Positions 46,654 to 63,056 of a stretch of 64,000 bases of DNA are shown piece by piece; position 1 is the stretch's first letter, and the number at the start of each line of letters is the position of its first letter. A program made the position numbers and the translations under genes. Source of the stretch: Aidingimonas halophila (GTDB taxonomy: Bacteria > Pseudomonadota > Gammaproteobacteria > Pseudomonadales > Halomonadaceae); NCBI RefSeq assembly GCF_900106955.1, contig NZ_FNNI01000010.1, forward strand, positions 1 through 64,000, given 5' to 3'. The notes below the pieces were generated by a model. That model was not told the DNA's origin. It made no database searches and saw only the letters and a list, made by a program, of their open reading frames with translations.

Positions 46654-46980
46654 ATGAAAGCGATCACCCGTGATGACCTCAAAACCATGAACGAAACCGA
46701 GCACGAAGACTTTGTGCTGCTCAACGTACTACCGCGGGAAGCCTTCAACAAGGAGCACATTCGCACCTCGGTGAACGTGCCTGTCGGCGACCCCGAGTTC
46801 GTCGAAAAGGTCGAGGCGCTAGCCGGTCATAAGGATCGCAAGATCGTCGTATATTGCGCCGACTTCGATTGCGACGCTTCAGCCAATGCAGCCAAGAAGC
46901 TTGAGGAAGCCGGTTTCAGTCACGTCTACGACTATGAAGGGGGCACAAAGGACTGGTTCGAGAAACGGCAGGCGGCTTGA
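46654..46980 (+). CDS. rhodanese-like domain protein
   Basis: The 108-residue protein is a single rhodanese domain: FVLLNVLPREAFNKEHIRTS at the N-terminal half and the active-site loop VVYCADFDCDAS, in which the first cysteine is the persulfide carrier. It may transfer sulfur or sense thiols. The start is well supported by AGGGAGGA upstream. The upstream 290 bp hold no gene. Confidence 0.88.
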   Translation: MKAITRDDLKTMNETEHEDFVLLNVLPREAFNKEHIRTSVNVPVGDPEFVEKVEALAGHKDRKIVVYCADFDCDASANAAKKLEEAGFSHVYDYEGGTKDWFEKRQAA

Positions 46981-47542: not shown

Positions 47543-47556
47543 GTATCCTGTCATAC
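47543..47556. promoter_or_regulatory. shared GTAT/ATAC motif upstream of the SDR-FAH-UxaA operon
   Basis: GTATCCTGTCATAC lies 55 bases before the SDR start. The same outer GTAT and ATAC half-sites, with a spacer one base longer, occur at 55,942 and 59,015. It is a candidate operator for the FadR-type regulator at 50,972. Confidence 0.5.
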
Positions 47557-47610
47557 AATACAGCAATCACTAATCAACCATTCATAACAACGCCAAGGAA
47601 TGGTTCTGCC

Positions 47611-48360
47611 ATGCGACTCAAAGACAAGACAGCCTTGATCACTGCCGCCGGTCAGGGCATCGGGCGCGCCACTGCCGAACGCTTCGCCGCCGAAGGCGCC
47701 CGGGTCATCGCGACCGATATCAATACCGAAGCCCTCACTGAACTGGCCACGGTACCGGGTATCGAGACACAGCCCCTGGATGTGCTGGATACCAATGCCA
47801 TCGACGCCCTCGCCGCTTCGCTGTCGGCACCGGATATCCTGTTCAATTGTGCGGGGCATGTCGCCGGTGGCTCGTTGCTGGAATGCGACGAGCGTGACCT
47901 GGAGTTTTCCCTCTCGCTCAACGTCATGGCCATGTATCGCATGATACGGGCGTTCCTGCCGGGCATGGTCGCCCATGGGGGTGGGAGTATCATCAACATG
48001 GCGTCGGTGGCGTCCAGCCTGAAGGGCGTGCCCAACCGCTTCGCCTACGGCACCACCAAGGCGGCGGTCATCGGCTTGACCAAATCGGTAGCCGCCGACT
48101 ATATCGGCCAGGGCATTCGCTGCAACGCCATCTGCCCCGGCACGGTGGAATCGCCATCGCTGAAGGCGCGCATTGCCGAGCAGGCCCGACAGCAAGGGCG
48201 CGATGAAACCGACGTCCACCGGGAGTTCATCGCCCGGCAACCTTTGGGGCGCCTGGGCAAGCCCGCAGAAATCGCGGCGCTCGCCACTTATCTGGCAGCC
48301 GACGAATCCGCCTATACCACCGGTACCGCCCAGATCATCGATGGCGGCTGGTTGAACTGA
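47611..48360 (+). CDS. SDR dehydrogenase, 2-keto-3-deoxy-L-fuconate dehydrogenase-like
   Basis: The 249-residue protein has the cofactor loop TAAGQGIGRATAERFAAEGA, NCAGHV, catalytic Ser in MASVASSLKG, YGTTKAAVIGL, and ICPGTVESPSLKARIAEQA. The family's sugar-acid members oxidise 2-keto-3-deoxy-L-fuconate or -rhamnonate to the 2,4-diketo acid. The next gene encodes a FAH-type hydrolase that would cleave that product, and an L-fuconate dehydratase gene lies at 60,294, which together support this assignment. It is closely similar to the SDR at 27,087. Confidence 0.85.
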   Translation: MRLKDKTALITAAGQGIGRATAERFAAEGARVIATDINTEALTELATVPGIETQPLDVLDTNAIDALAASLSAPDILFNCAGHVAGGSLLECDERDLEFSLSLNVMAMYRMIRAFLPGMVAHGGGSIINMASVASSLKGVPNRFAYGTTKAAVIGLTKSVAADYIGQGIRCNAICPGTVESPSLKARIAEQARQQGRDETDVHREFIARQPLGRLGKPAEIAALATYLAADESAYTTGTAQIIDGGWLN

Positions 48361-48377
48361 TAGAGGACCTACTGACG

Positions 48378-49229
48378 ATGAAACTGTTGCGTTTCGGCCC
48401 GCGCGGCCATGAAAAGCCCGGTCTACTGGACGATCAGGGTATCATTCGCGATCTCTCCGCCCATATCAATGATCTTGCCGGTGACCATCTAAGCCGCGAT
48501 CAATTGGCCGGGCTGGCTGAACTCGATCCTGCCAGCCTGCCGGCCGTCGATGCGAGTGAACGTCTTGGCCCATGCGTGGGTCACGTAGGCAAATTCATCT
48601 GCATTGGCCTCAACTACTCCGACCATGCCGCCGAAACCGGCGCTGAAGTACCGGCCGAACCGGTGCTCTTCAACAAGTGGACCAGTGCCATTTGCGGCCC
48701 CAATGACGACGTCATCATCCCGCGCGGGTCGAAAAAGACGGATTGGGAAGTGGAACTCGGCGTGGTGATCGGAACGGAAGCTCGCTACGTCGATGAAAGC
48801 GAGGCGATGAACCATGTTGCCGGGTTCTGCGTGATCAACGATGTCTCGGAGCGGGAATTCCAGCTCGAGCGCTGCGGCAACTGGGACAAGGGCAAGGGGT
48901 GCGACACCTTCGGCCCGATGGGCCCCTGGCTGGTCACCCCCGATGAGATCAGCAATCCCCATGAACTCGCGATGTGGCTGGAAGTCGATGGCAAGCGCTA
49001 TCAAAACGGCAGCACCAATACCATGGTCTATCAGGTGCCTTTCCTGATCAGTTATCTGAGTCGGTTCATGAGCCTGCAACCCGGCGATGTCATCTCGACG
49101 GGAACGCCGCCGGGTGTCGGCATGGGACAGAAACCCCAGGTCTATCTCCAGCCGGGCCAACGCATGCGCCTCGGCATCGAGGGACTTGGCGAACAGAGCC
49201 AGAACGTGATCGCCGAGCCCGGTGCCTGA
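48378..49229 (+). CDS. FAH-family hydrolase, 2,4-diketo-3-deoxy-L-fuconate hydrolase-like
   Basis: The 283-residue protein has the FAH signature: GKFICIGLNYSDHAAETGAE, TDWEVELGVVIGTEARYVDE with metal-binding glutamates, and GDVISTGTPPGVGMGQKP. Close relatives hydrolyse acylpyruvates such as 2,4-diketo-3-deoxy-L-fuconate to pyruvate plus lactate; others are ureidoglycolate lyases. The SDR gene 18 bases upstream favours the first role. Confidence 0.87.
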   Translation: MKLLRFGPRGHEKPGLLDDQGIIRDLSAHINDLAGDHLSRDQLAGLAELDPASLPAVDASERLGPCVGHVGKFICIGLNYSDHAAETGAEVPAEPVLFNKWTSAICGPNDDVIIPRGSKKTDWEVELGVVIGTEARYVDESEAMNHVAGFCVINDVSEREFQLERCGNWDKGKGCDTFGPMGPWLVTPDEISNPHELAMWLEVDGKRYQNGSTNTMVYQVPFLISYLSRFMSLQPGDVISTGTPPGVGMGQKPQVYLQPGQRMRLGIEGLGEQSQNVIAEPGA

Positions 49230-49282
49230 TCCCTACGCGCCCGGCGCCATCGACACATCAGGAAATAGCAGGAGTCATGGAC

Positions 49283-50926
49283 ATGAGTCGAACGATTGCC
49301 AGCGACACATTCCAACAATCCAGCCTGCGTGTCCATGTCGACGACAATGTGCGTGTGGCGCTCAAGGATCTCAAGCCCGATACCGAGATCGAGGATAACG
49401 GGCGGATCATCCGTATCGCCCGGCCTATTCGTCGCAAGCACAAGTTCGCCCTGCAAGATCTGGCCGAGGGTGACACGGTGGTCATGTATGGCGTCACCGT
49501 GGGACGCGCCACCTGCCCGATCGCCACGGGCGAGGCCATTACCACCACCAACACCGAGCACTCCACCGACAACAGCCAGCCACAGGCCCGTCGCGACCAG
49601 TGGCAGGCGCCGGACGTGAGCGAGTTCGAGGGCGTCACCTTTGATGGCTATCATCGCCCCGACGGTCAGGTGGGAACGGCCAACTACTGGTTGGTCGTGC
49701 CATTGGTATTCTGTGAAAACCGCAATATCGAAGTACTGCGCCAGTGCGTGGCCGATGCACTGGGCGACGACCCCTACCGCGACTACAAGCGCATGGCCCG
49801 GGCGATGTTGCGAGGCGAACCGGTTGATACCACTTCCAGTGACGCCGGCCAGGAGCGGTTGTTTCCCCATGTCGATGGTGTGCGTTTCCTGACCCACACC
49901 CACGGTTGCGGCGGAACCGACGACGACGCTCAAGCGTTGTGTCGTTTGCTTGCCGGTTATATCTGCCACCCCAATGTGGCAGGCGCCACGGTGCTGAGTC
50001 TCGGTTGCCAGAAATCCCAGATGGACATGCTCAGCCGTGCCATCGAGGAACGCGATCCCCAGGGATTGCGACCGGTACACTACTTCGAACAGCAGGCCAC
50101 CCACAGCGAAACGGATCTGATTCGCCAGGCGCTGACGACCATCTTCGACGGCCTGGCCGATGCCAACCGTTGCGAACGGGCCCCGGCGCCACTCTCGAAA
50201 CTGACCATCGGGGTCGAGTGCGGCGGGTCCGACGGATTCTCGGGTCTGTCGGCCAACCCTATGGTGGGCGCGACCATCGATCGGCTGGTTGCGCTGGGTG
50301 GCAGTGGCATTCTCAGTGAGTTTCCCGAGCTGTGCGGTGTCGAGCACGAGTTGCTGGCCCGTTGCCGCGATGATCAGGTCGGCGAACGATTCCAGCAGTT
50401 GATGGAGGCCTATCAACGCCATGCCGATGCCGTCGGCGCCAGCTTCTCGATGAATCCGTCGCCGGGCAACATCCGCGACGGTTTGATCACCGATGCCATG
50501 AAATCGGCGGGTGCCGCCAAGAAAGGCGGCGACAGTCCGATCGTCGGCGTGCTCGACTATACTGAGCCGCAGCGTCAGCAGGGCCTGAACCTGCTCTGTT
50601 CACCGGGTAATGATGTCGAGTCGACGACGGCGCTGGTGGGCTCCGGCGCCAATCTGGTGATCTTTACTACTGGTCTGGGCACGCCGACCGGCAACCCGAT
50701 CGCGCCGGTACTGAAGGTCGCCAGCAATAGCGAACTGGCCAAGCGAATGCCGGATGTTATCGATTTCGATGCCGGACCGATCATTAGGGGCGAAGCGCAA
50801 ATCGAGGAACTGGCCGAAAGAATGCTGCAGTTGTGCATCGACACGGCCTCGGGCCGCTATCGTCCGCGGGCCGTGCAACTTGAACAACTCGATTTCATTC
50901 CCTGGAAACGCGGGGTTTCACTGTAA
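49283..50926 (+). CDS. UxaA-family altronate/sugar-acid dehydratase
   Basis: The 547-residue protein has an N-terminal SAF domain (about residues 15-90, ending ATCPIATGEAIT) and the UxaA core: VPLVFCENRNIEVLRQ, LTHTHGCGGTDDDAQALCRL, GVECGGSDGFSGLSANPMVG and NPSPGNIRDGLITDAMKSAG, with cysteines for the metal centre. Members dehydrate altronate or galactarate to 2-keto-3-deoxy acids. The ATG at 49,283 has AGGAG eight bases upstream; one six bases earlier is also possible. The gene follows the FAH gene after 53 bases. Its substrate need not be altronate here. Confidence 0.88.
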   Translation: MSRTIASDTFQQSSLRVHVDDNVRVALKDLKPDTEIEDNGRIIRIARPIRRKHKFALQDLAEGDTVVMYGVTVGRATCPIATGEAITTTNTEHSTDNSQPQARRDQWQAPDVSEFEGVTFDGYHRPDGQVGTANYWLVVPLVFCENRNIEVLRQCVADALGDDPYRDYKRMARAMLRGEPVDTTSSDAGQERLFPHVDGVRFLTHTHGCGGTDDDAQALCRLLAGYICHPNVAGATVLSLGCQKSQMDMLSRAIEERDPQGLRPVHYFEQQATHSETDLIRQALTTIFDGLADANRCERAPAPLSKLTIGVECGGSDGFSGLSANPMVGATIDRLVALGGSGILSEFPELCGVEHELLARCRDDQVGERFQQLMEAYQRHADAVGASFSMNPSPGNIRDGLITDAMKSAGAAKKGGDSPIVGVLDYTEPQRQQGLNLLCSPGNDVESTTALVGSGANLVIFTTGLGTPTGNPIAPVLKVASNSELAKRMPDVIDFDAGPIIRGEAQIEELAERMLQLCIDTASGRYRPRAVQLEQLDFIPWKRGVSL

Positions 50927-50971
50927 GACGGGCAAACGCCATGGCTGCCGGTATCGATTGATGTCGACGGG

Positions 50972-51697
50972 TCACTCGGGTACGTGGGACAGTCGCTTCT
51001 TGAGTTCCATGTAGGTGCCATAGTGCCGGTCCAGATGGCGACGCATGGCCGCCTCGGCCGCGTCGGGGTCACGCGATTCGATGGCTTCGACGATCTCGGT
51101 ATGGGCCTGGAACGCCGCCTGGTCTTCACCTTCCTGCTGTAATGCTTCGGCGCGACGGTCATCGAGCCATTCGGATAGCGCTTCGTGGATTGCATCGAAG
51201 ATGGGATTACAGGCAATCGATGCCAGTACGCCGTGAAAATCGTTGTCGGAGCGCTTGAAGCGCGCTTCATGCCCCAGAGCAACGCGATTGTCCTCCAGGG
51301 CAGCGCGCAACCGTGCGAGATCGTCGTCGGTCGCATGGCGGGCGGCATAACGGGCCAGCGAAATCTCGAACATGGCCCGTGCTTCCTGGAAGTACTGCTG
51401 TCCTTCCGATTTGACCAACAGCTGCCGTGTCACGCCGGAGAGTCGAGCCATCACGGCTTCGGCAGTGGGACGGATCACTCGCGCCCGCGTACCGCTGTTG
51501 ATGGCGATCAATCCCAGACGCTGTAGATAGAACAAGGCTTCCCGCACCGCCGGACGCCCCACGCCGAACTGCTCCATCAACTCCCGCTCTGTCGGCAGTT
51601 GATCGTCTTCTTTCAAGCGACCTTCGAGAATATCCACTTCCAACTGCTCGGCCACCTGTTCGGAGAGCGTCTTACGCTCCACCTTGTATCGGCTCAT
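50972..51697 (-). CDS. FadR-type GntR regulator (FCD domain)
   Basis: The 241-residue protein has a GntR winged HTH (LPTERELMEQFGVGRPAVRE, LFYLQRLGLIAI) and an FCD domain with metal-site residues (FEISLARYAARHATDDDLAR; FHGVLASIACNPIFDAIHE; HTEIVEAIESRDPDAAEAAM). Such regulators respond to sugar acids or other carboxylates. It is convergent with the UxaA operon and follows the dctPQM-ldh genes on the same strand. It is the best candidate to bind the shared GTAT/ATAC motifs. Strong AGGAG upstream. Confidence 0.9.
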   Translation of the reverse strand: MSRYKVERKTLSEQVAEQLEVDILEGRLKEDDQLPTERELMEQFGVGRPAVREALFYLQRLGLIAINSGTRARVIRPTAEAVMARLSGVTRQLLVKSEGQQYFQEARAMFEISLARYAARHATDDDLARLRAALEDNRVALGHEARFKRSDNDFHGVLASIACNPIFDAIHEALSEWLDDRRAEALQQEGEDQAAFQAHTEIVEAIESRDPDAAEAAMRRHLDRHYGTYMELKKRLSHVPE

Positions 51698-51768
51698 TCG
51701 TTGCCACTCCTCGATACGGCTATCTGCTGCCCTATCTTACTGTATTCGCCCCTTATCGTGCGCCTCTG

Positions 51769-52851
51769 TCATGAGCGTCTCACGGCGAGTGGCGTCAATC
51801 CCAGTTCCTCGGCCAAGCGCTCGTAAGCCGCCAGGTTGGCAGCATCCAGGGGGATACCTTGCGCATCGCGACGCGCCTGGCAGCGCCATTCGCGATCCCC
51901 CGGTGCCATCACCTCAGTCCCGTCGAGAGCCGGCTGCGATCGCAGGTCGTCCAGATACGTGCGCATGCTGGCCTGATAGGTCTCACGATCGCTGAAGGCA
52001 TCTGGCCGCATGGCCAGGAAAAAATGACCGACACCGCGAGGGGTCGACATGTCGGGCCCTCCCATGGGCAGCAACCGGAAACCGTTCTGCATGCCGGTCA
52101 GCGTGGAACTCAGCACTTCCACCATGCCCGCCAGACCGGCGCCCTTGAAGCCGAAGTCAGCCCCGCCCAGTGGTAGCAACGAGGCCACTTCTGCAGGGTC
52201 GCACGTCACTTTTCCCGTCGCATCAGCGGCCACATCCGGTGGCAATGCACGACCGATGGCGCCATATTGCTGCACCCGGTTCCAGGGAATGGAACTGGAC
52301 GCCATGTCGAGCAGATAGGGAGGTTGCCCCTCGACCGGCGCCGAAAAAGCAATCGGATTCGTGCCATGGAACGGTGCCTTGCCATCATGCAGGCGAACGA
52401 AGGGATCGGAATTGCATACGGTCATGCCTATCAAGCCCCGTTCGGCGGCAGCGAGAGCGTAACACCCCGCCGCCCCGAAGTGCGAGGAGTGGCCGACCGC
52501 CACGGCCCCCATACCGACCTCATCGGCCATCGAGCAGGCATGATCCATCGCCGTGTAACCGGCCAGGTGCCCGAAACCGTCGTCAGCGTCCAGATAGCCG
52601 ATCGCCGGCAATGGCTGGGTGAAACGCATCGACGGACGCGCCGTGATACGTCCACCGCGCACCGCATTGACATAATGTGGCAGTAAACGAAGACCGTGAC
52701 TGTCCACTCCCATGCTCGAGGCCGTCAGCAAGGCCCGGGATACCGCCTCGGCGCTGGGGGTATCGACATCGCAGCGCCGTAGTACGTCATGCATGAAGGC
52801 TTGCAGGTCGGCCGCATCGACGCGAGCCACATCATCGTTTTCCGCTTTCAT
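51769..52851 (-). CDS. Ldh-family NAD(P)-dependent dehydrogenase
   Basis: The 360-residue protein is a malate/L-lactate dehydrogenase-family oxidoreductase (type 2, not Rossmann): SSMGVDSHGLRLLPHYVNAV with the catalytic histidine, GHSSHFGAAGCYAL, NSDPFVRLHDGKAPFHGTNP, and FGFKGAGLAGMVE-like substrate loop. Relatives reduce or oxidise 2-oxo/2-hydroxy acids such as 2,3-diketo-L-gulonate. The second ATG at 52,851 has AAGGG six bases upstream; the first ATG two codons earlier is alternative. It is directly downstream of dctM, so it probably acts on the imported acid. Confidence 0.87.
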   Translation of the reverse strand: MKAENDDVARVDAADLQAFMHDVLRRCDVDTPSAEAVSRALLTASSMGVDSHGLRLLPHYVNAVRGGRITARPSMRFTQPLPAIGYLDADDGFGHLAGYTAMDHACSMADEVGMGAVAVGHSSHFGAAGCYALAAAERGLIGMTVCNSDPFVRLHDGKAPFHGTNPIAFSAPVEGQPPYLLDMASSSIPWNRVQQYGAIGRALPPDVAADATGKVTCDPAEVASLLPLGGADFGFKGAGLAGMVEVLSSTLTGMQNGFRLLPMGGPDMSTPRGVGHFFLAMRPDAFSDRETYQASMRTYLDDLRSQPALDGTEVMAPGDREWRCQARRDAQGIPLDAANLAAYERLAEELGLTPLAVRRS

Positions 52852-52860
52852 CGTCATCCC

Positions 52861-54240
52861 TTATCGATACACCAGCGTTGGCAGCCACATGGAAATGGCT
52901 GGAATGAAAGTCACCAGCAGCAGCGCGACTACCAGCGGTATCAAAAACGGTAACGTACCGCGCATGCACTTCTCGAAGGAGATGTTCGACACCCGCGACA
53001 GCACATACAGCACCATGCCCACCGGCGGAGTCAGCAAGCCAATCATCAGGTTCAGCACCATGATGACGCCGAAGTGCACCGGGTCCACACCGACGCCGAC
53101 CGCCATGGGCAACAGCACGGGCACCAGAATGGTGATGGCGGCGATCGTTTCCATGAAGCAGCCCACGATGATCAACACCATATTGATGAGCAGCAACACG
53201 GCAATCGGGTCATCCGCATACGGTCCCAGTAGCCCGATGAGGTGTTGGGTCACCTGGTTGCTGGTCAGGATCCAGGCGAAGATCGAGGCACCGGCAACAA
53301 TCATCAGGATCACGGCCGTCGTCTCGATGGTTTCCATGCTCACCTTGAGCAAGCGCCGCCAGGTCAGCGTGCGGTAGACGACCCCACCGAGAAACAGTGC
53401 ATAGACGACGGCGGCAATCGCCGCTTCCGTCGGTGTGAAGGCGCCGGAGAGAATCCCGCCCACGATGATCACCGGAGTCAGCAACGACAGGAATGCCCCG
53501 GCGAAGGTACGCCTCAGTATCGGCAATGCGAAGGTGGCATCCCGCGGATAGCCACGCCGGCGCGCCAGCATGGTGATCATCAACATCAGGACGACACCCA
53601 TCAATAGACCGGGAATCAGGCCGGCCACGAATAGCTGCCCGACCGATGCAGAGGCCATGACGCCATAGATGACCATCGGCAGACTCGGTGGAATGATGGG
53701 TCCAATGGTCGATGACGCCGCGGTGATTCCCACGGCGAACTCCTGATCATAACCGGCGTCACGCATCGCCTTGATCTCGATGGTGCCCAGCCCACCGGCA
53801 TCGGCGACCGCCGCCCCGGACATGCCGGAAAACACGATACTGGCGCCGACGTTGACGTGGCCCAGCCCGCCACGCATCCAGCCCATCAACGCCTTGGCGA
53901 AGTCGAAGATGCGACTGGTGATGCCGGCATTATTCATCAGGTTGCCGGCCAGGATAAAGAAGGGAATCGCCAGTAGCGGGAAGCTATCGACCCCGTTGAT
54001 CATGCGGTGGATGACGACCACATCCGGTATCCGTCCCACCAGGAGGATATACATCAGGCAGGAACCGGCCAGGGCAATGGCGATGGGGACACCGAGCACC
54101 AACATGGTGAACAGCGACACGAAAAGAAAAGCTAGGTAGTGGCCCAGCAAGGCCAACACGATACAGCCGGTAACCGCTATGGCGGCGATGATGGGAGGAA
54201 CGATAGCGCCTCGCCAACGCGTGACCGGGACATGGGGCAT
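52861..54240 (-). CDS. TRAP transporter large permease (DctM)
   Basis: The 459-residue protein has about twelve helices and the DctM motifs: IPFFILAGNLMNNAGIT, GGLGHVNVGASIVFSGMSGA, STIGPIIPPSLPMVIYGVMA, and GLLTPPVGMVLYVLSRVSNI. An extra N-terminal stretch of about 30 residues forms one more hydrophobic segment. It is encoded between dctQ (26 bases upstream) and the Ldh gene. Confidence 0.93.
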   Translation of the reverse strand: MPHVPVTRWRGAIVPPIIAAIAVTGCIVLALLGHYLAFLFVSLFTMLVLGVPIAIALAGSCLMYILLVGRIPDVVVIHRMINGVDSFPLLAIPFFILAGNLMNNAGITSRIFDFAKALMGWMRGGLGHVNVGASIVFSGMSGAAVADAGGLGTIEIKAMRDAGYDQEFAVGITAASSTIGPIIPPSLPMVIYGVMASASVGQLFVAGLIPGLLMGVVLMLMITMLARRRGYPRDATFALPILRRTFAGAFLSLLTPVIIVGGILSGAFTPTEAAIAAVVYALFLGGVVYRTLTWRRLLKVSMETIETTAVILMIVAGASIFAWILTSNQVTQHLIGLLGPYADDPIAVLLLINMVLIIVGCFMETIAAITILVPVLLPMAVGVGVDPVHFGVIMVLNLMIGLLTPPVGMVLYVLSRVSNISFEKCMRGTLPFLIPLVVALLLVTFIPAISMWLPTLVYR

Positions 54241-54266
54241 GGCTGTGACTCCAGAAAGCGGGGGAA

Positions 54267-54812
54267 TTAGCGTTTATCGTCGGTGAACATCAATTCACTG
54301 GTCCCTTCTCGCCAGTGTCGGATCATCGCCTGGACAGCGCGAAATATCATCAGCACATAGCCGATGAGGACCACGTAATAAAGCAGGCTCTTGGGGATAT
54401 CAACGGACACCATCATCGAGTCGGTTTGATTCGCCAGTTTGAACGTGACCCAGCCAATCGCCAGGTAGAACGCAATACTGACGAGATCCACCAGTGTTGA
54501 CATGGTGCGGCCCACGATGCCCGGCATGTAGCGATAGAAGAACTCCACCGCGATGTGCGAGCATTTCCTGACCGCCATGGCACTGCCGAGAAACCCCACG
54601 ATCACCAGCAGGTATCGGGCCATTTCCTCGGTCCAGGCGATCGAATTGCCCAACACATAGCGGCTGAAGAACTGCAGAAAGACATCGAAAGCAAGTACCC
54701 AGAAGACGGCCAGTGTGACGTAGTCTTCCGGCGCATACGCCTTGGCATCGAACACATCGTCGTCGGGAACGTCGAACGTCACCTCATCAGTCGACCGATG
54801 ATCCTCGGACAT
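54267..54812 (-). CDS. TRAP transporter small permease (DctQ)
   Basis: The 181-residue protein has four helices with the DctQ pattern: LQFFSRYVLGNSIAWTEEMA near residue 48, GSAMAVRKCSHIAVEFFYRY, and a last hydrophobic stretch at YYVVLIGYVLMIFRAV. An acidic 28-residue N-terminal tail is longer than usual. It is co-transcribed with dctP (upstream, across a hairpin) and dctM. Confidence 0.9.
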   Translation of the reverse strand: MSEDHRSTDEVTFDVPDDDVFDAKAYAPEDYVTLAVFWVLAFDVFLQFFSRYVLGNSIAWTEEMARYLLVIVGFLGSAMAVRKCSHIAVEFFYRYMPGIVGRTMSTLVDLVSIAFYLAIGWVTFKLANQTDSMMVSVDIPKSLLYYVVLIGYVLMIFRAVQAMIRHWREGTSELMFTDDKR

Positions 54813-54827
54813 AAAAACCTCCTAGAC

Positions 54828-54856
54828 ACACCATCCCTCATAACGAGGGATGGTGT
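54828..54856 (-). terminator. intercistronic hairpin between dctP and dctQ
   Basis: ACACCATCCCTC and GAGGGATGGTGT form a perfect 12-bp stem with a five-base loop in the dctP-dctQ gap. It probably stabilises dctP mRNA or partially terminates, so that the binding protein is made in excess. Confidence 0.65.
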
Positions 54857-54872
54857 AGTGACATTGGAATGG

Positions 54873-55871
54873 TTACTTTCCGAGTTCCTGAACGCGGTCG
54901 TAGGTTTCCTGATCCCAGTCGACATCCTCGCCGGTGTGATAGGGAATTACGGCTTCGCGGAACGGTTCGGTATCCACTTCATTGACGGTGGTACCTTGCT
55001 CCTCGAACCATTCAACCAACTCGTCTTCCTGTTGACGGATGTCCTCGGTGATGCGCTCACCCGCTTCGATGTAGACCTCCCGGAAGATTTCGCGGTCCTC
55101 TTCGGAGAGACGCTCCCAGAGCGGCCCACCAGCGATGGTGATCAGTGAATCGGTGATATGACCGGTCAGATTGATGTAGTCCTGCACTTCATAGAACGCC
55201 TTGGCCCGAATGGTCGGCAAGGGGTTCTCCTGGGCATCGACCGTCCCTTGCTGCAGGGCCAGATAGACCTCGGAGAAAGCGATCGGCGTCGGATTGGCGC
55301 CCACGGCCTCGGGGAACATCATGTACAACGGCGCGTTGGGCGTGCGGATCTTGAGATCCTCCATGTCCTCCGGCGTGTTGATCGGCTCGTTGGACGTCAC
55401 GTGACGCCGGCCGTAGTAGTTCATCGCCAGCGGTACGTTGCCAGTTTCATCCTCATAGCCCTGTGCGATTTCATCGAACAGATCACTCTCGGCATAGGCC
55501 TGCCAGTGGTCGAAGTCGCGGAACATGTAGGGCGCGCCGGCGATACCGATCGGGCCGTAGGAACGGCCGGCAAACTGATTGCCGGTATAGATCAGGTCGA
55601 CGGTACCAAGCCCAAGGCCTTCGTTGATATCCGCTTCCTTACCCAGCGAGGAGGCTGGATGGACCTCGATCTCGTAGCGCCCATCGGTACGTTCCTCAAT
55701 CTCGTCAGCCGCCCACAGAGCCCACTCATGGTATGGCTCCGAGGTCTCATAGACGTGAGCGAAATTGAGGGTCTCGGCATGCGCCGCTCCTGCCATACTG
55801 ACTCCTGCTGCCAGCAGTGTCATCGAAAACCACTGTAGGGGGCGACGCTGGCTCGTGCTCGTGTTACCCAT
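54873..55871 (-). CDS. TRAP transporter solute-binding protein (DctP family)
   Basis: The 332-residue protein has a Sec signal peptide (basic SQRRPLQW, then MTLLAAGVSMAGAAHA) and the DctP fold: WALWAADEIEERTDGRYEIE, SSLGKEADINEGLGLGTVDL, and IRTPNAPLYMMFPEAVGANP with the carboxylate-binding arginine. The mature protein is strongly acidic, as in halophiles. I chose the second ATG (55,871), which has GGAG nine bases upstream. It opens the dctPQM-ldh operon and lies next to the kinase/PdxA2 operon; a sugar acid is the likely ligand. Confidence 0.9.
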   Translation of the reverse strand: MGNTSTSQRRPLQWFSMTLLAAGVSMAGAAHAETLNFAHVYETSEPYHEWALWAADEIEERTDGRYEIEVHPASSLGKEADINEGLGLGTVDLIYTGNQFAGRSYGPIGIAGAPYMFRDFDHWQAYAESDLFDEIAQGYEDETGNVPLAMNYYGRRHVTSNEPINTPEDMEDLKIRTPNAPLYMMFPEAVGANPTPIAFSEVYLALQQGTVDAQENPLPTIRAKAFYEVQDYINLTGHITDSLITIAGGPLWERLSEEDREIFREVYIEAGERITEDIRQQEDELVEWFEEQGTTVNEVDTEPFREAVIPYHTGEDVDWDQETYDRVQELGK

Positions 55872-55941
55872 CTTTTTGTTCTCCATGCATGAGAAGAATG
55901 CAATGTCTCGACTTCATGACGAGTTGAACGATGGTCGTTGT

Positions 55942-55956
55942 GTATACGTGTCATAC
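55942..55956. promoter_or_regulatory. shared GTAT/ATAC motif upstream of dctPQM
   Basis: GTATACGTGTCATAC lies about 70 bases upstream of dctP, within a wider ATGGT...ACCAT frame. It shares its half-sites with the motifs at 47,543 and 59,015. Confidence 0.55.
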
Positions 55957-56009
55957 CATCATAAAGAAACCTAGCCACTACCGGCTCGGTACGCAACCTC
56001 CAACCGCGA

Positions 56010-57152
56010 TCAGAGGCCTTCCACTTTGGTGGTGTAGCGATACAACGCCACCAACGCCTCGTCATCACCGAACCCCCCGGCCTTGGTGACGATCGGTCGT
56101 GCGCCATCCAGATAACCGCACACCATCCCAGGCGCCCATTCACCGACCACATCGATCCTGGAGGCACCATAGCGCACCATCACCGCCATGGCCGTGTCGC
56201 CTCCGCTCAGGCACCAGGCGCGCCCCGGCGAAGAATCGCCACTATCGCTGGTGATAAGTACCTCGGCCATGCGAGCCGCCACCCCATGCGCCGACCAGGA
56301 CTCACTACTCTGCCCGGGGATCAGCAAGACATTGCCTCTCGGAAGCGTCGCGTCTGATTCCAGCGCACTGACGACAGGCAATTCGGGACACGATGTCCGG
56401 CAACGGTGAATCTGTTGCTGGGCCTGAGGGCTACGGGAACCGATCGCCAGCACCAGCCCATTCACCGGCAGCGGCGGCCGTTCGATCGGTTCCCCATAAC
56501 GGCGCTGGGCTACCGCTCCCGTGAGACCGGCCGCCCCTACGGCCAACCAGCAATCGGTTGCGGCCAGCAAGGTCGCGGCCACCGCATCCAGGGACCCGGC
56601 GTCGGCGGCGTCGACAATGCAGTCCGTTTCCGCCGTCGGTACCCCCGGATCGGCACGGCAGGACATGGACACACCGCCCCGGCCGAACAGCGCGACCAGG
56701 TCTCCACCCTGTGCCGGCGAACAAGCATCAGTGGCGTAAGCGGTGGTTTCGAGAGGTTCATCATGGACGAACACTCGCCCTCGATGCGTCGTCCGTCCCT
56801 GAGCCGGTACCGCCGGAGCGACCAGCAGTGCGCGGTCGAGACAACGGCGTGCCGCCAGGCACTCGGCGATGACCTGCCCCCGCAAGGTGGAATCAACTTT
56901 TTTGATCCAGAGCTCGGGGGCCAGTGCCTGCGCCGCATGAATCGCCTCGCTCACACGCTCGGCAGCCGCCGAGGCAGACAGGTGTCGCGACTCCGTCGTT
57001 ATCGCAACGACCTCGGGAGGCGGACTTTCGCCCAGCGTGGCGAGTCCCGGCAGCGACGTCACCACCCGGGTCACCGCACCGCGTGCGGCAAATGGCGCCG
57101 CGGCATCCAGCGCCCCGGTCAGATCATCGGCAATAATGACGATATCAGCCAT
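56010..57152 (-). CDS. four-carbon acid sugar kinase (DUF1537 family)
   Basis: The 380-residue protein starts with the DUF1537 motif [18 protein letters not shown] and has [26 protein letters not shown], and the C-terminal nucleotide-binding [16 protein letters not shown]. The family (OtnK, DtnK) phosphorylates C4 sugar acids such as D-threonate or 3-oxotetronate. It overlaps the PdxA2 gene by eight bases; kinase plus PdxA2 is the known route from D-threonate or D-erythronate to dihydroxyacetone phosphate. It is somewhat shorter than typical members (about 420). Confidence 0.88.
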
Positions 57153-58152
57153 GGTTGCGAACCAGACGCCAGGCGTGGTCGATCGCAGCTCGCATGTTGG
57201 TGGCATCGGCACGACCCTGCCAGGCAATATCGAAGGCCGTGCCATGATCCACCGACGTACGCTGGATCGGCAGTCCCAGACTCACATTGACTGTCGTGTC
57301 GAAGGCGATCAGCTTGACAGGGATGTGCCCCTGGTCGTGATACTGCGCCACCACCAGATCGAACTCACCCCGACTGGCCCGATAGAAGACCGTGTCCGCG
57401 GATATCGGCCCCTGAACCTCCCAGCCGCGTTTTTGCAGTTGCATCACGGCCGGTGCGATGACTCGGTCATCTTCATCGCCGAATATGCCCCCCTCGCCGC
57501 AGTGCGGGTTGAGACCCGCCACGGCGATACGCGGCGCCTCTATTCCCAATCGCCGCAGATGATCGTATCCGGCAGCCACGGTTGCCGTGACCCGCTCGAC
57601 GGTCACTCGGTCAATCGCGTCACGTAACGACACATGCGTCGACACATGAATGGTCGACAACTGCTCGGAGGCCAGCAGCATGAAAGACGATGGCGCGCCT
57701 GTCAGCGATGCCAGCATGCCAGTATGGCCATCGTAGTAGCGTTCGGCGGCATGCAACGCGGCCTTGTTGAGCGGCGCCGTCACGATCACTCCGGCCCGAC
57801 CGTCCTGGACCAGTTCGACGGCACGTTCGATACAGCGAAAGGCTGCCTCGCCCGCCGCTGCACTGATCTCGCCGGGCGGAATATCCCCTGACGGCATCTC
57901 AATCTGCGCCACTGCGACGCAACCGGCCACCTCGGCATCCCGCTCCACAGCACAGAACGACAGATCGACATCGGTCACTTGCGCCGCCCGTGCGAAGGTG
58001 TCGCGATCGCCAACCAACAGAATGGCCGCTCGCTCGCTTGCTGTCAGGCCGGCCAGCGACCGGCAGATGATTTCCGGGCCGATTCCCGCCGGATCGCCCA
58101 TGGTGATAGCCAGGGAGTAGGCAGGGACGGCATGTGAATGGATTGCACTCAT
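57145..58152 (-). CDS. PdxA2-type 4-phosphotetronate dehydrogenase
   Basis: The 335-residue protein is a PdxA-family NAD enzyme: [53 protein letters not shown], and [20 protein letters not shown], with histidines of the metal site. In vitamin B6 synthesis PdxA stands with other pdx genes; here it is between a DUF1537 kinase and an SDR, with overlaps at both ends, which marks it as PdxA2, oxidatively decarboxylating a 4-phospho-threonate or -erythronate. Confidence 0.88.
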
Positions 58153-58913
58153 GGCATCAACTGCCCGCCGTTGACTTCGATGACCTGCCCGGTCACGTAA
58201 CCGCTCATGCCATCGCTGATCAGAAACAGATACGCCCCGACGCAATCCTCGGCGGTGCCCAATCGACCCTGCGGGATCGTCGCCCTGGCGGCCTCCAACT
58301 GAGCTTCATTGGAATAGCGCTCGTGGAAATCGGTGGCGATGGTCCCGGGTGCAACGGCATTGACACGAATATTGTCACCCGCCAGTTCCTTGGCCATGTT
58401 ACGTGTCAGGGTACTGACGAAGCCCTTGGCCGAAGCATAGAAACCGGCTCCTGGCCCGCCGCCGTTACGCGCGGCGATCGAACTGGTATGGACGATGCTG
58501 CCTCCCCCCGAGCGGCGCAGGTACGGCAAGGCAGCGTGGCTCGCGGTCACTACCGAGCGAACATTGAGATCCATCACCCGGTCATAATGCGCATCGTCGA
58601 TCTCGTCGAGTTTGACGCGCCCGAGCATGTCGCCGGCGTTGTTGACCAGGACATCGAGTCCTCCCAATTGTTCGGCGGCACTATCGACCACCGCGCTGGC
58701 TTCATCGGAACGGCTGACATCCCCCTTGACCATTACGGCGTTGCCACCACTCTCGACGATGGCATCACGAACCTCGCGCGCCCTGGCCTCGCTGGAGTGG
58801 TAGTGAACCGCCACATGGGCCCCGAATGCCCCCAGGCGCCGGGCAACTGCCGCTCCGATCCCTCGGCTTGCACCGGTGACCAGCACGCGTTTACCTGCCA
58901 ATTCGTCGAACAT
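58149..58913 (-). CDS. SDR oxidoreductase in the kinase/PdxA2 operon
   Basis: The 254-residue protein has the cofactor loop [30 protein letters not shown], catalytic [20 protein letters not shown] with Ser and Tyr, and [17 protein letters not shown]. It overlaps PdxA2 by four bases and is first in the operon, so it probably converts a sugar or sugar acid into the kinase substrate. Known L-threonate routes use an HIBADH-type dehydrogenase here, so an SDR is a variation. The substrate is not known. Confidence 0.87.
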
Positions 58914-59009
58914 AGAACATCTCTCCTTCGGCTTGTCGTTAGACTTGTCTATCAGGGGCTGCGCTTCTGGAACGGAATGAGTCGAGCGCTAGAGCCGCTG
59001 GCCTCTCAC

Positions 59010-59029
59010 TGATAGTATACCTATCATAC
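59010..59029. promoter_or_regulatory. shared GTAT/ATAC motif between divergent operons
   Basis: TGATAGTATACCTATCATAC contains both a perfect TGATAG/CTATCA inverted repeat (centre TATAC) and the GTAT-7-ATAC motif. It lies between the SDR-PdxA2-kinase operon and the FAH-dehydratase operon and could control both. Confidence 0.6.
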
Positions 59030-59110
59030 ATAACGACAAGCATAGCCAAGTCGAGGCTGAATGCCATGACATCATCTTGCCCCTTACCGCATTAGCCACC
59101 GGAGTTCGAT

Positions 59111-60274
59111 ATGTTTTCTGATACGAGTCATTTGCTGCCTGCCGATCATGACAGTGCGTTACTGGTCGGTCGGGTATGGCACCCAGCTCCTGATGACACC
59201 CCATCTCTCGTCATCGTTCGACAGGGCGAAGTAATCGATATCAGTGCTACCTGCAACTGCATGGCCGACCTGCTGGACCAGGACGATCCCGCCGGCTTCG
59301 TACGATCCGCATCGGGTGAGTCACTGGGCTCGGTTACCGACCTGCTGACCCGCTCTCTGGAAAGCGCCTCGTCAGGTCCCTATCTACTGGCGCCCTGTGA
59401 TGTACAAGCGATCAAGGCGTGTGGCGTGACCTTTGCCGTCAGCCTGCTGGAACGGGTGATCGAAGAGCAGGCCGCCGGCGACCCCGCCAAAGCCAGCGAG
59501 CTACGCCAGGAATTGCAGTCGATGATCGGCGCAGACTTGTCGAAGATCGAGCCCGGCTCGGACGCCGCGATGTCCCTCAAGGAGGCCCTGCAAGCACGTG
59601 GTGCCTGGTCGCAGTACATGGAAGTCGGTATCGGTCCCGATGCCGAGGTCTTCAGCAAGGCACAACCGCTCTCCTCGGTCGGTTTCGGGGCCTCGGTCGG
59701 GCTACATCCGGCATCCCAATGGAACAATCCCGAACCGGAGATCGTCCTGGCCGTCGATTCGAAGGGGAATATCAAGGGAGCCACGCTGGGGAACGACGTC
59801 AACCTGCGCGACATCGAGGGGCGTAGTGCCCTGCTGTTAAGCAAGGCCAAGGACAATAATGCCTCCTGCGCCATCGGTCCCTTCATTCGCCTGTTCGATG
59901 ACGGCTTCTCTCTGGACACGCTGCGCCAGGCTCAGGTATCGCTGCGCATCGACGGCGAGGATGACAGCTTCGTGCTGGAAGACAGCAGTGACATGCGAGA
60001 AATCAGCCGCGATCCGGCCAATCTCGTATCGCAGACCATTGGCGCCCACCACCAGTACCCCGATGGGTTCATGCTGTTCCTCGGCACCATGTTCTCGCCG
60101 ATCCAGGACCGCGACGGCGCCGGTCAGGGCTTTACCCACCATATCGGCGATACCGTAACGATCGCCACCCCGTCACTGGGCGCTCTGGTCAACCGGGTCG
60201 ACCGCTCGGACAAGCTGCCGCCCTGGACCTTCGGCATCCGTCAATGGCATGCCAGCCAGACACGCCAGCGATAA
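59111..60274 (+). CDS. FAH-family protein, 2-keto-3-deoxy-sugar-acid dehydratase-like
   Basis: The 387-residue protein has a long N-terminal domain and a C-terminal FAH fold: MEVGIGPDAEVFSKAQPLSS, NPEPEIVLAVDSKGNIKGAT with metal-binding glutamates, and GNDVNLRDIEGRSALLLSKA. This length and layout resemble 2-keto-3-deoxy-arabinonate/pentonate dehydratases. The L-fuconate dehydratase gene begins 20 bases downstream; such enzymes also accept D-arabinonate, so the pair could convert a pentonate to 2-oxoglutarate semialdehyde. That substrate is inference. Confidence 0.8.
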   Translation: MFSDTSHLLPADHDSALLVGRVWHPAPDDTPSLVIVRQGEVIDISATCNCMADLLDQDDPAGFVRSASGESLGSVTDLLTRSLESASSGPYLLAPCDVQAIKACGVTFAVSLLERVIEEQAAGDPAKASELRQELQSMIGADLSKIEPGSDAAMSLKEALQARGAWSQYMEVGIGPDAEVFSKAQPLSSVGFGASVGLHPASQWNNPEPEIVLAVDSKGNIKGATLGNDVNLRDIEGRSALLLSKAKDNNASCAIGPFIRLFDDGFSLDTLRQAQVSLRIDGEDDSFVLEDSSDMREISRDPANLVSQTIGAHHQYPDGFMLFLGTMFSPIQDRDGAGQGFTHHIGDTVTIATPSLGALVNRVDRSDKLPPWTFGIRQWHASQTRQR

Positions 60275-60293
60275 CACACTGTGGAGACCCACC

Positions 60294-61592
60294 ATGACAA
60301 CGATCACCCATCTCGACGTTCAGGACATCCGCTTCCCCACCTCGCGGTCGCTGGATGGGTCGGATGCAATGAATGCCGCACCCGACTATTCCGCTACTTA
60401 CGTCATCCTGCACACCGATGACAGCCACGAAGGCCACGGCCTGACCTTTACCATCGGTCGCGGCAATGAAATCTGCGTCGCTGCGGTCAAGTCACTCGCT
60501 TATCTGGTCGAAGGCCGTAGCCTGGCATCGATTACCGATAACATGGGCGCCTTCTGGCGCCAGATCACTGGCGACAGCCAACTACGCTGGATCGGCCCCG
60601 ACAAAGGCGCCATCCATCTGGCTACCGCCGCCATCGTCAATGCAGTCTGGGATCTATGGGCCAAGGCGGAAGGCAAGCCAGTCTGGAAACTGCTGGCCGA
60701 CATGTCGCCCGAGGCGCTGGTGCGCTGTCTCGACTTCCGCTTCGTCACCGATGCACTGACACCCGAAGAAGCCATCGCCATGTTGCGGCGCAAGCAGGAC
60801 GGCAAGGCGCAACGTGAGTCGGAAATGCGTCAACGCGGTTATCCCGGTTACACCACCTCGGCAGGCTGGCTCGGCTACTCGGACGACAAGGTACGCCAAC
60901 TGGCCCGCGAAGCCCTGGCCGAAGGCTGGACGCACTTCAAGCAGAAGGTTGGTGGTAATCTGGAGGAAGACTGCCGACGTGCGCGCCTGCTGCGCGAGGA
61001 GATTGGCTGGGAACGTCCACTGATGATGGATGCCAATCAGATGTGGGACGTCGACGAAACCGTGGCCAACATGCGCAAACTGGCCGAGTTCGATCCGTTG
61101 TGGATCGAGGAACCCACTAGCCCCGACGACATTCTCGGCCACGCCGAAATCCGTCACCGACTCGCGCCCATCGGTGTAGCAACCGGCGAACATTGCCATA
61201 ACAAAGTCATGTTCAAGCAGTTCCTGCAGGCCGATGCGCTGGACTACTGCCAGATCGACTCGGCGCGGCTCGGGGGACTCAACGAAGTGATCCTGGTATT
61301 GCTGCTGGCGGCCAAGTTCGATGTCCCGGTCTGCCCCCATGCCGGCGGAGTCGGCCTGTGCGAGTATGTGCAGCATATCTCGCTGTTCGACTATATTGCC
61401 GTGTCAGGCTCCCTGGACGGTCGCATTCTCGAGTATGTCGACCATCTCCACGAGCACTTCGTCGATCCGGTCGTGATCCAGAACGGCCACTACCAGGTAC
61501 CCACGGCACCGGGCTACAGTATCACCATGCATCCCCAATCCCTGGCGCGCCACCGTTATCCCGACGGGGCAGCCTGGCAAGAGGACGCATGA
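60294..61592 (+). CDS. L-fuconate dehydratase, enolase superfamily
   Basis: The 432-residue protein matches L-fuconate dehydratases: DIRFPTSRSLDGSDAMN near the start, GYTTSAGWLGYSDDKVRQ, the acid/base WTHFKQKVGGN, metal ligands in LMMDANQMWDVDE, WIEEPTSPDD and ATGEHCHNKVMF, and CPHAGGVGLCEYVQ with the catalytic histidine. It dehydrates L-fuconate, and often related acids such as D-arabinonate, to 2-keto-3-deoxy acids. Start set at MTTITHLDVQDI. Its product could feed the SDR at 47,611 or the FAH enzyme encoded upstream. Confidence 0.92.
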   Translation: MTTITHLDVQDIRFPTSRSLDGSDAMNAAPDYSATYVILHTDDSHEGHGLTFTIGRGNEICVAAVKSLAYLVEGRSLASITDNMGAFWRQITGDSQLRWIGPDKGAIHLATAAIVNAVWDLWAKAEGKPVWKLLADMSPEALVRCLDFRFVTDALTPEEAIAMLRRKQDGKAQRESEMRQRGYPGYTTSAGWLGYSDDKVRQLAREALAEGWTHFKQKVGGNLEEDCRRARLLREEIGWERPLMMDANQMWDVDETVANMRKLAEFDPLWIEEPTSPDDILGHAEIRHRLAPIGVATGEHCHNKVMFKQFLQADALDYCQIDSARLGGLNEVILVLLLAAKFDVPVCPHAGGVGLCEYVQHISLFDYIAVSGSLDGRILEYVDHLHEHFVDPVVIQNGHYQVPTAPGYSITMHPQSLARHRYPDGAAWQEDA

Positions 61593-61634
61593 CCGGGCAA
61601 CCTGATACAGCGACAACGGCAGTAGGGAGCAAGC

Positions 61635-63056
61635 ATGACAACAGACAAGGCCGGCATCGTGGAAACCCTGGTCTCCCGACTGGGTGACAGCGGCGTATTG
61701 CGAGACGACGACGCGTTGTCGCGCTATACCCATGACTGGGCCGGCGATGCCCTGGGCACCCCCTTGGCCGTGGTACGACCACGCACGACCGATGAGGTCG
61801 CCGATATCGTCAGGCTATGCAACGAGCATGACCTGCGCATGGTCCCCCAGGGCGGTCATACCGGTCTGGTCGGCGGTGCGTTTCCCGACCGCGATCAGGA
61901 CGAGCTGATCATCAGCCTGGAGCGCATGAACCGCATCCGCGACCTGGACCCAGTCAATTTCAGCATGACGGTGGATGCCGGATGCATCCTTGAAGAGGTC
62001 AAGCAGGCCGCCGACACCGAGGACTGCGACTTCCCGTTGTCGCTGGGGGCGCAAGGCAGCTGTCAGATCGGTGGCAACATCGCCACCAATGCCGGCGGGC
62101 TCAACGTCCTCCGTTACGGCATGATGCGGGAGCTGGTACTGGGGCTGGAAGTGGTATTACCCAACGGCGAGATCTGGGACGGCCTGAGTGCCCTGCACAA
62201 GGATAATCGCGGCTATGATCTGGCCCAGCTGTTTCTGGGCAGCGAGGGGACTCTGGGTATCGTCACCGGTGCCGTACTCAAGCTCGTGCCCAAAGCGGAA
62301 CAGACGCGCACGGCATTGTTGGGCCTGCCCTCGGTCGCGGCGGTGATCGAACTCTATACTCTGGCACGCCGCGGTTGCAGCGACCTGCTTTCGGCCTTTG
62401 AACTGATCCCGCGCCGCTGCATCGAACTCGCCATGGAAGCCTCGCCGCAACTCAGCGATCCACTGGATGAGGCTTACCCCTGGTACGTACTGATGGAAGT
62501 CGCCGCTACCGGACCGATCGATCTCAGCGAGATGCTCGAGCGACTACTGGAAAACGGCATGGAGAAGGACCTGGTGCTGGACGGTGCGCTGGCCAGCAGT
62601 GACGCGCAGTCTCAGAATCTCTGGCAATTCCGCGAGAGCATGCTGGAAGGACAACGGCTCAAGGGCAAGCATTTGCGGACCGATGTCTCGGTACCGATCT
62701 CCGCGATCCCGGATTTCGTCGATCGGGCCGCGGTCATGGTATCGGACGTCTCGCCCGATTCCACAGTGATTGCCTACGGTCATATCGGCGATGGCAACCT
62801 GCACTTCAATATCCTGCCGCCGCCGGACACCTCGAACGAGGAAAGGCGGGTACTGCTCCATGACCTCGAGCAGCGCCTGTTCGCGATCCTCGACGAGTTC
62901 CGTGGCAGCATCAGTGCCGAGCACGGCATCGGCAGGACGAAGCAGGCCGCGTACCTGGCCAGACTCTCCCCCACGGAGCGGGAACTGATGCAGGGTATCA
63001 AGTCGCTCTTCGACCCGAAGGGTGTGATGAGTCGCGGCCGTATCCTGCCGGAATAA
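61635..63056 (+). CDS. FAD-binding oxidoreductase, D-2-hydroxyacid dehydrogenase type
   Basis: The 473-residue protein has the PCMH FAD domain (RMVPQGGHTGLVGGAFPD, SLGAQGSCQIGGNIATNAGG, LFLGSEGTLGIVTGAVLKL) and a C-terminal oxidase-type domain ending YGHIGDGNLHFNILPPP and SAEHGIGRTKQAAYL with the metal-type histidines. It resembles D-2-hydroxyglutarate and D-lactate dehydrogenases that pass electrons to a flavoprotein or quinone. It is third in the operon, and could oxidise a 2-hydroxy acid made in the pathway. Confidence 0.88.
   Translation: MTTDKAGIVETLVSRLGDSGVLRDDDALSRYTHDWAGDALGTPLAVVRPRTTDEVADIVRLCNEHDLRMVPQGGHTGLVGGAFPDRDQDELIISLERMNRIRDLDPVNFSMTVDAGCILEEVKQAADTEDCDFPLSLGAQGSCQIGGNIATNAGGLNVLRYGMMRELVLGLEVVLPNGEIWDGLSALHKDNRGYDLAQLFLGSEGTLGIVTGAVLKLVPKAEQTRTALLGLPSVAAVIELYTLARRGCSDLLSAFELIPRRCIELAMEASPQLSDPLDEAYPWYVLMEVAATGPIDLSEMLERLLENGMEKDLVLDGALASSDAQSQNLWQFRESMLEGQRLKGKHLRTDVSVPISAIPDFVDRAAVMVSDVSPDSTVIAYGHIGDGNLHFNILPPPDTSNEERRVLLHDLEQRLFAILDEFRGSISAEHGIGRTKQAAYLARLSPTERELMQGIKSLFDPKGVMSRGRILPE

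Follow-up and report, generated by a model that had tools for sequence, protein, structure and literature searches.

A conserved locus of Aidingimonas halophila and other Halomonadaceae joins a putative C5/C6 sugar-acid branch with a D-threonate-kinase-like arm, probably under one regulator

A sugar-acid catabolic region (positions 47611–63056) was analyzed in a 64,000-nucleotide stretch of the Aidingimonas halophila genome (contig NZ_FNNI01000010.1, positions 1 to 64,000), which is called the window below and to which all coordinates refer. The region contains a predicted longer-chain (C5/C6) branch and a putative C4 arm, namely a DUF1537 kinase, PdxA2 and a protein of the SDR family. Three described systems are close to it. 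The D-threonate pathway, reportedly described by Zhang in 2016, consists of a DUF1537 kinase and PdxA2. In the window, a kinase of this family also adjoins PdxA2; unlike in the D-threonate pathway, the kinase is diverged (166 of 450 bits), an SDR gene precedes, and the arm is tied to a longer-chain branch. In 2017, a locus of Halomonas HL-48 and HL-93 with the Lgo/Lfo TRAP transporter and the regulator FucR was predicted to serve L-fuconate and L-galactonate (PMC5507952). The window belongs to the same family and resembles that locus in its COG0179 and COG1028 enzymes, uxaA, TRAP operon and predicted regulator sites; unlike that locus, it has no LgoD- or UxaB-like gene. The HL-48 stretch found in our scan (L075) is syntenic with the window, and we infer that it is the very locus of Figure 3 in PMC5507952. 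The terms threonate, PdxA, COG3395 and DUF1537 do not occur in the main text of that paper, the supplementary tables being outside the scope of this count. The non-phosphorylative D-arabinose/L-fucose routes II and III of Herbaspirillum huttiense are similar in having a UxaA-family dehydratase beside COG3970 and COG1028 genes, as well as an SDR 4-dehydrogenase and a FAH hydrolase that give pyruvate and either glycolate or lactate (PMC6336799). These routes differ in their aldose dehydrogenases and in their distribution over several clusters, and a kinase/PdxA2 arm is not described in the part of that text covered here. No earlier report joining both arms was found among the open-literature matches listed, subscription journals and supplementary files being outside the scope of the search. 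Thus, both the longer branch and a prediction of its regulation are already on record, while its tie to a C4 route appears not to have been described. The constancy of the C4 arm, the strength of a shared DNA element and the recurrence of the linkage in another phylum are new here.

Open reading frames (ORFs) and domain scans of the window divided the region into three gene runs. The first, SDR1-FAH1-UxaA, is located on the plus strand (47611–50926). The second, SDR2-PdxA2-kinase-DctP-DctQ-DctM-Ldh2-GntR, runs on the minus strand from 58913 down to 50972. The third, FAH2-LfuD-GlcD, is again on the plus strand (59111–63056) and is divergent from the second, with a gap of 197 bases between them. 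All genes named in the original prediction were present as ORFs with matching domains; its inventory, correct in what it named, had missed the second FAH-family gene, FAH2 (59111–60274).

The kinase was searched in 58 genomes, and 9 of them, including the genome of the window, matched at an E-value of 2.5e-70 or better; all nine belong to the same family, Halomonadaceae. A contig scan with a kinase alignment gave at least 79 loci (among the best 80 of a longer list), including L052 from Aidingimonas lacisalsi, the nearest named relative. After four duplicates were removed (L052, L053, L064 and L066, equal to L034, L037, L040 and L041, respectively), 36 distinct Halomonadaceae loci remained, no further pair of which shared more than 3 kb at 97%. 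Since the loci were selected by the kinase, its presence in 36/36 holds by construction. The presence of other genes was judged by identity thresholds in stretches limited by contig ends or to a distance of 10 kb from the kinase; the counts are therefore lower bounds. PdxA2, DctP, DctQ, DctM, Ldh2 and GntR were each found at all 36 loci, GntR at an identity of at least 80%. SDR2 was found at 34 loci, GlcD at 30, FAH1 and FAH2 at 29 each, SDR1 at 28, UxaA at 25 and LfuD at 22, with SDR1 and FAH1 together in the same stretch at 28 of the 36. At every locus, the kinase/PdxA2/TRAP/Ldh2/GntR block was accompanied by one or more genes of the other branch. In eight 20-kb neighbourhoods, the gene order was kept with losses: LfuD was absent in L039–L041, and the stretches of L035 and L040 lacked UxaA-FAH1-SDR1. 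In one genome (G013), the UxaA-FAH1-SDR1 operon was displaced to about 9 kb beyond its GntR gene, and in another (G033) an SDR1-like gene (67% identity) was found on a different contig.

Outside the family, both branches were found on one strand in three genomes of Desulfuromonadia, namely L078 (a Geobacteraceae metagenome-assembled genome, MAG), L081 (a Desulfuromonas MAG) and L149 (G885). These operons contain genes for Ldh2, an LgoD-like zinc dehydrogenase, a tagaturonate-reductase-like protein, DctPQM, PdxA2, kinase, FAH1, UxaA, SDR1, UxuA and GntR; SDR2 was found in L081 only. The joint locus is rare in this class, as 2 of 194 genomes from it passed the PdxA2 cut-off, one of them being that of L081 itself. 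Among 369 Gammaproteobacteria, two passed the kinase cut-off, both from the family of the window. The suggestion that two pathways are joined in this region was borne out by the 36 Halomonadaceae loci and the three Desulfuromonadia: the two branches are truly joined, and their linkage is conserved.

Word counts upstream of the operons revealed CCTGTCATAC in the two sets of promoters. When up to one mismatch was allowed, the element TGTATGACAGG was found in 35/35 SDR2/FAH2 promoters and in 23/24 SDR1 promoters, the window being included in both sets; the exception, the SDR1 promoter of L060, required two mismatches, and two SDR1-promoter rows (L036 and L041) were artefacts dropped before the count. 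Elsewhere in the 797,016 bases, TGTATGACAGG had 8 matches, 7 of them before cluster genes. These 8 comprised two in the interval from FAH2 to PdxA2 at loci lacking SDR2 (L062 and L068), one before FAH1 in L044, four before an HpcH/HpaI aldolase gene (L056, L057, L062 and L069) and one that was not assigned (L068 at 4713). In shuffled promoters, the element occurred in 7 of 1360 cases. The 17-base form of the SDR2 site had exactly one match per genome at up to one mismatch in nine whole genomes, always at the cluster; because the element was defined from these sites, this test shows its rarity and not its existence. Besides the cluster, the 17-base pattern matched the genome of the window only on contigs C16 and C19, with two mismatches. 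Such two-mismatch matches numbered 8 over the nine genomes versus 7 for the reversed pattern, and they were counted as chance.

The window contains two sites, which are the sole matches in 64 kb. The first candidate GntR operator, TGTATGACAGGATA (47544–47557, minus strand), is located in the SDR1-FAH1-UxaA promoter, 53 bases before the SDR1 start. The second (59010–59030, minus strand) lies between the divergent SDR2 and FAH2 genes, and its part at 59010–59026 is a perfect inverted repeat, TGATAG-5-CTATCA. The displaced SDR1 operon of G013 still bears the site. Since the element is found both in the divergent promoter and before SDR1-FAH1-UxaA, one regulon is likely. The candidate regulator of the three operons is the GntR/FCD protein (50972–51697, minus strand; PF00392 and PF07729), whose binding to the element is suggested by linkage. 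The earlier idea of one candidate regulator over both branches is probable, as their promoters share this element.

The enzymes of the longer branch were compared with solved structures and family models. SDR1 (47611–48360, plus strand) is a putative L-2-keto-3-deoxyfuconate / D-2-keto-3-deoxypentonate 4-dehydrogenase that matches the crystallised L-2-keto-3-deoxyfuconate (L-KDF) 4-dehydrogenase of H. huttiense (8y4j, 8xwk and 8y11) with 336 bits. In the alignment to 8y4j, with a numbering shift of five, Arg143, Thr178, Arg187 and Arg209 of SDR1 correspond to Arg148, Thr183, Arg192 and Arg214, and Ser132-Tyr146-Lys150 to Ser137-Tyr151-Lys155. This R-T-R-R ligand set and the Ser-Tyr-Lys triad have been named for the type-1 enzyme, and this relative of SDR1 binds C5/C6 acids in their furanosyl hemiketal form (PMC11199699). 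SDR1 thus has the residues of the type-1 L-KDF 4-dehydrogenase C785_RS13675, and they are invariant in 30 sequences including that of the window. A second SDR (27087–27857, minus strand), 54% identical to SDR1 and with the R-T-R-R pattern by eye, was observed next to another SDR and a GntR/FCD regulator, along with a large TRAP-like permease that is paired with an NMT1-type (TAXI) binding protein; this setting is possibly a second 2-keto-3-deoxy-acid or cis-4-hydroxyproline route.

FAH1 (48378–49229, plus strand) is a putative 2,4-diketo-3-deoxy-sugar-acid hydrolase that would release pyruvate and a 2-hydroxy acid. Its top match was the L-2,4-diketo-3-deoxyrhamnonate hydrolase 8gsr (301 bits), and its score with the L-rhamnonate enzyme model NF053535 was below the cut-off (421 bits vs 500). 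His83 and Glu86 are invariant in 34 sequences; they agree by residue number with the catalytic pair named in the hydrolase C785_RS20550 (PMC6336799). The UxaA/GarD-family aldonate dehydratase (49283–50926, plus strand; PF20629, PF04295 and PF08666) contains the four cysteines of its superfamily (Cys144, 209, 242 and 313), invariant in 31 sequences, and is 47–55% identical to its best plasmid relatives. LfuD (60294–61592, plus strand), a member of the enolase superfamily, is closest to 4ip4 (610 bits) and then to the L-fuconate dehydratase 1yey/2hxt (560 bits, full length for 1yey). It falls in the L-fuconate dehydratase group, the first chain outside scoring 131 bits vs 560. Among solved structures, FAH2 (59111–60274, plus strand; putatively of the COG3970 class) is related to 9kkt (416 bits) and to the 2-keto-3-deoxy-D-arabinonate dehydratase 2q18 (65 bits), which makes it a candidate 2-keto-3-deoxy-pentonate dehydratase; dehydratases of the FAH superfamily yield alpha-ketoglutarate semialdehyde (PMC6336799). 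Two further dehydrogenases were found, namely a GlcD-like FAD 2-hydroxyacid dehydrogenase (61635–63056, plus strand; PF01565 and PF02913; 267 bits with TIGR00387, below the cut-off of 568) and an Ldh2-family 2-hydroxyacid dehydrogenase (51769–52857, minus strand; PF02615).

Judged by these matches, the longer-branch enzymes fit the known D-arabinonate / L-fuconate chemistry, in which the SDR acts on 2-keto-3-deoxy-D-pentonate and L-KDF and the hydrolase yields glycolate or lactate (PMC6336799). The original prediction of an unknown mixed or branched sugar acid is not supported by this match or by the assignment of the homologous Halomonas locus to L-fuconate and L-galactonate (PMC5507952).

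Accessory genes vary among the loci. An HpcH/HpaI aldolase was found at 19 of the 36, and in L056, L057, L062 and L069 the shared element precedes it; an aldolase of this type would be a third way of cleaving the 2-keto-3-deoxy acid. An aldehyde dehydrogenase was found at 7/36 loci, a tagaturonate-reductase-like protein at 3/36 and an LgoD-like zinc dehydrogenase at 7/36, an eighth match of the latter being a 40-residue piece. None of these four was found in the window or the next 12 kb.

The C4 arm begins with SDR2 (58149–58913, minus strand), which overlaps the PdxA2 start by 4 bases and whose closest matches among solved structures are 4-deoxy-L-erythro-5-hexoseulose uronate reductases (225 bits). 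PdxA2 (57145–58152, minus strand) is nearer to the D-threonate 4-phosphate dehydrogenase 6e85 (298 bits) than to the PdxA1 chain (184 bits), which places it with PdxA2 rather than PdxA1, and passes the general PdxA model TIGR00557 (359 over 290); a second PdxA is encoded on contig C10 of the same genome. The kinase (56010–57152, minus strand, with a putative start) contains both DUF1537 domains, PF07005 and PF17042, the second aligned only from position 107 of 168. It scored 166 bits with the D-threonate kinase model NF047819 vs 50 bits with the 3-oxo-tetronate model NF043035. Its motifs are retained in eight relatives, and its conservation (41–64% identity) is lower than that of PdxA2 (71–90%). 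The suggestion that an SDR here replaces a tetronate dehydrogenase of the 3-hydroxyisobutyrate dehydrogenase (HIBADH) type was misframed. The D-threonate kinase/PdxA2 route of Zhang (2016) is said to need no such enzyme, and HIBADH with 3-oxo-tetronate kinase is a different route, both enzymes of which are on contig C14 of the same genome (L-threonate dehydrogenase, 436 bits; 3-oxo-tetronate kinase, 593 bits; cut-off 350 for each). Therefore, the arm in the window is not a HIBADH route with a replaced part.

A tree of the kinases, built with 10 of the 36 Halomonadaceae loci and the window and rooted at the midpoint, grouped the Halomonadaceae and Desulfuromonadia kinases with those from two SDR2-linked contigs (L076 and L082) in a clade of 17 with a support of 0.956. 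A different kinase setting was also observed: in seven betaproteobacterial-type loci (L072 at 7.0–13.2 kb, L073, L074, L077, L080, L086 and L095), a related kinase and PdxA2 lie behind a FAH1-like protein (30–34% similarity). In L072, the FAH1-like frame had no Pfam match at 1e-6, and a BKACE gene is added, with a ferredoxin-type reductase nearby by eye. This setting is perhaps one of aromatic degradation.

From the computed gene content, conserved linkage, shared element and SDR1 active site, we infer a tentative scheme, to which we give somewhat less than an even chance. In it, all substrates are proposals, and so are the regulator ligand, the binding of the regulator to the element, the stereochemical rule and the role of SDR2. 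The locus would be one regulon through which aldonates sharing a 2S,3R head are used in parallel, with two arms chosen by chain length. In this head, the 2-hydroxyl is on the left and the 3-hydroxyl on the right in Fischer projection, as in D-threonate (C4), D-arabinonate (C5) and L-fuconate, L-galactonate or D-altronate (C6). L-Fuconate is the 6-deoxy form of L-galactonate, and D-threonate matches these acids in configuration at C2 and C3. D-Altronate and L-galactonate share the C2–C4 configuration with D-arabinonate (PMC6336799), and a UxaA-family D-arabinonate dehydratase has relative activities of 12% with D-altronate, 5.6% with L-fuconate and 2.4% with L-galactonate (PMC6336799). The TRAP system would import these aldonates, the importer and the regulator both reading the common head. 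C5/C6 acids would be converted by UxaA or fuconate dehydratase to 2-keto-3-deoxy acids, SDR1 would oxidise C4, and FAH1 would cleave the 2,4-diketo acid, yielding pyruvate and a 2-hydroxy acid (glycolate, lactate or glycerate) that GlcD and Ldh2 could oxidise. Alternatively, FAH2 may convert 2-keto-3-deoxy-D-pentonate to alpha-ketoglutarate semialdehyde. The C4 acid would take the kinase arm because a tetronate has no secondary alcohol at C4 and cannot give a 2,4-diketo acid; D-threonate would pass through the DUF1537 kinase and then PdxA2 to dihydroxyacetone phosphate (DHAP) and CO2. SDR2, perhaps with Ldh2, may convert a related acid, for example a C2 epimer, to the kinase substrate. If this scheme is true, a family of aldonates is one nutrient class, known by its common head and sorted by chain length. 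It would also assign a role to a clade of kinases scoring far under the existing model, provide a rule for TRAP specificity and explain why the linkage recurs in two phyla.

A number of results weigh against this scheme. The kinase misses the NF047819 cut-off (166 vs 450 bits), so it is named D-threonate-kinase-like, and PdxA2 misses that of the D-threonate model NF002891 (320 vs 583 bits); with both below these cut-offs, D-threonate is a tentative choice of C4 substrate. The kinase clade also holds L084, which has no partner gene downstream (upstream it is cut by the contig end), and the PdxA2 tree does not separate the copies of these settings (support 0.53). The roles of SDR2 and Ldh2 are assumed. 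SDR2 is absent at L062 and L068, and of three plasmid neighbourhoods of its relatives (from 163 plasmid records) one adjoins TRAP genes and two are unrelated, so this attempt to derive its function was uninformative. LfuD and UxaA occur together at 13 loci, LfuD alone at 9, UxaA alone at 12 and neither at 2, and their mutual exclusion is not significant (Fisher p 0.14). The UxaA-family enzyme cited above strongly favours D-arabinonate, and one weak substrate gave a product spectrum unexpected for dehydration (PMC6336799). A search of the whole genome for an alpha-ketoglutarate semialdehyde dehydrogenase, made with one partial query at an E-value cut-off of 1e-60, found none, and the window gave no match at 1e-5, which leaves FAH2 without a next step. 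The Desulfuromonadia operons contain a mannonate dehydratase, which is a misfit as D-mannonate is outside the proposed series, and their GntR is different (29–31% or no match to that of the window). In L081, the element shows no enrichment (4 matches vs 3.2 expected when two mismatches are allowed). In addition, 11 of 100 shuffles of the window also reach two matches, so the weight of the evidence for the element lies in its conservation. Finally, the DctP model gives no ligand.

Among the competing explanations, the one that survives best is that the locus serves L-fuconate and L-galactonate only, the kinase/PdxA2/SDR2 arm handling another compound that shares the transporter or the regulator. 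It agrees with the assignment of the homologous HL-48/HL-93 locus (PMC5507952), with the LgoD-like genes at 7/36 loci and in the Desulfuromonadia operons, and with the kinase score far under the D-threonate cut-off. However, PdxA2 is as constant as the transporter, while the LgoD-like genes are not and are missing from the window and the next 12 kb, and the C4 arm begins at a promoter bearing the shared element; we consider this explanation unlikely. Two separate pathways that are chance neighbours in a sugar-acid island and respond to different inducers would account for the variable members (LfuD, UxaA and FAH2) and for the displaced operon of G013. This is improbable in view of the element common to both promoters, which also precedes the displaced SDR1 gene, and of the three Desulfuromonadia with both branches on one strand. 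A linear pathway for a C7 acid would be a single account of why the arms co-occur. After import and dehydration of the acid, SDR1 would oxidise C4 and FAH1 would release pyruvate and a tetronate, from which, once adjusted by SDR2 and Ldh2, the kinase and PdxA2 would form DHAP, so that non-phosphorylative and tetronate pathways are fused on one molecule. This pathway is highly doubtful, as the dehydratases and SDR1 belong to families known on C5/C6 acids, the relative of SDR1 binds the furanosyl hemiketal of such acids (PMC11199699), and at 7/36 loci the stretch with the kinase arm contains no FAH1 gene (G013 carries the operon farther along the contig).

The TRAP system of the region is encoded on the minus strand. 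The solute-binding protein DctP (54873–55886; PF03480) was modelled with a predicted local distance difference test (pLDDT) score of 88, and its nearest solved folds are TRAP binding proteins. In the structure ranking, sialic-acid, pantoate and sugar-acid binders score close together. The small permease DctQ (54267–54812) scored 33 bits with NF007374, below the cut-off of 260, and was assigned by its position between DctP and DctM; the large permease DctM (52861–54240) scored 458 bits with TIGR00786. DctP resembles SiaP, and the GntR regulator exceeds the NanR model NF003011 (272 bits over 260), so automatic annotation will probably call it NanR. Sialic acid was rejected as the substrate, as family scans showed no sialic-acid enzyme in the region. 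3-Deoxy-D-manno-octulosonate (KDO, C8), which would give D-arabinonate after SDR1 and FAH1, was considered and left without support.

On the left, the region is flanked by a rhodanese-domain gene (46654–46977), and on the right by a helicase gene with a DbpA domain. A second TRAP system (42915–45882), without the shared element, is located just beyond the region, behind an enoyl-CoA hydratase and an AMP-binding acyl-CoA ligase (40539–45882 in total).

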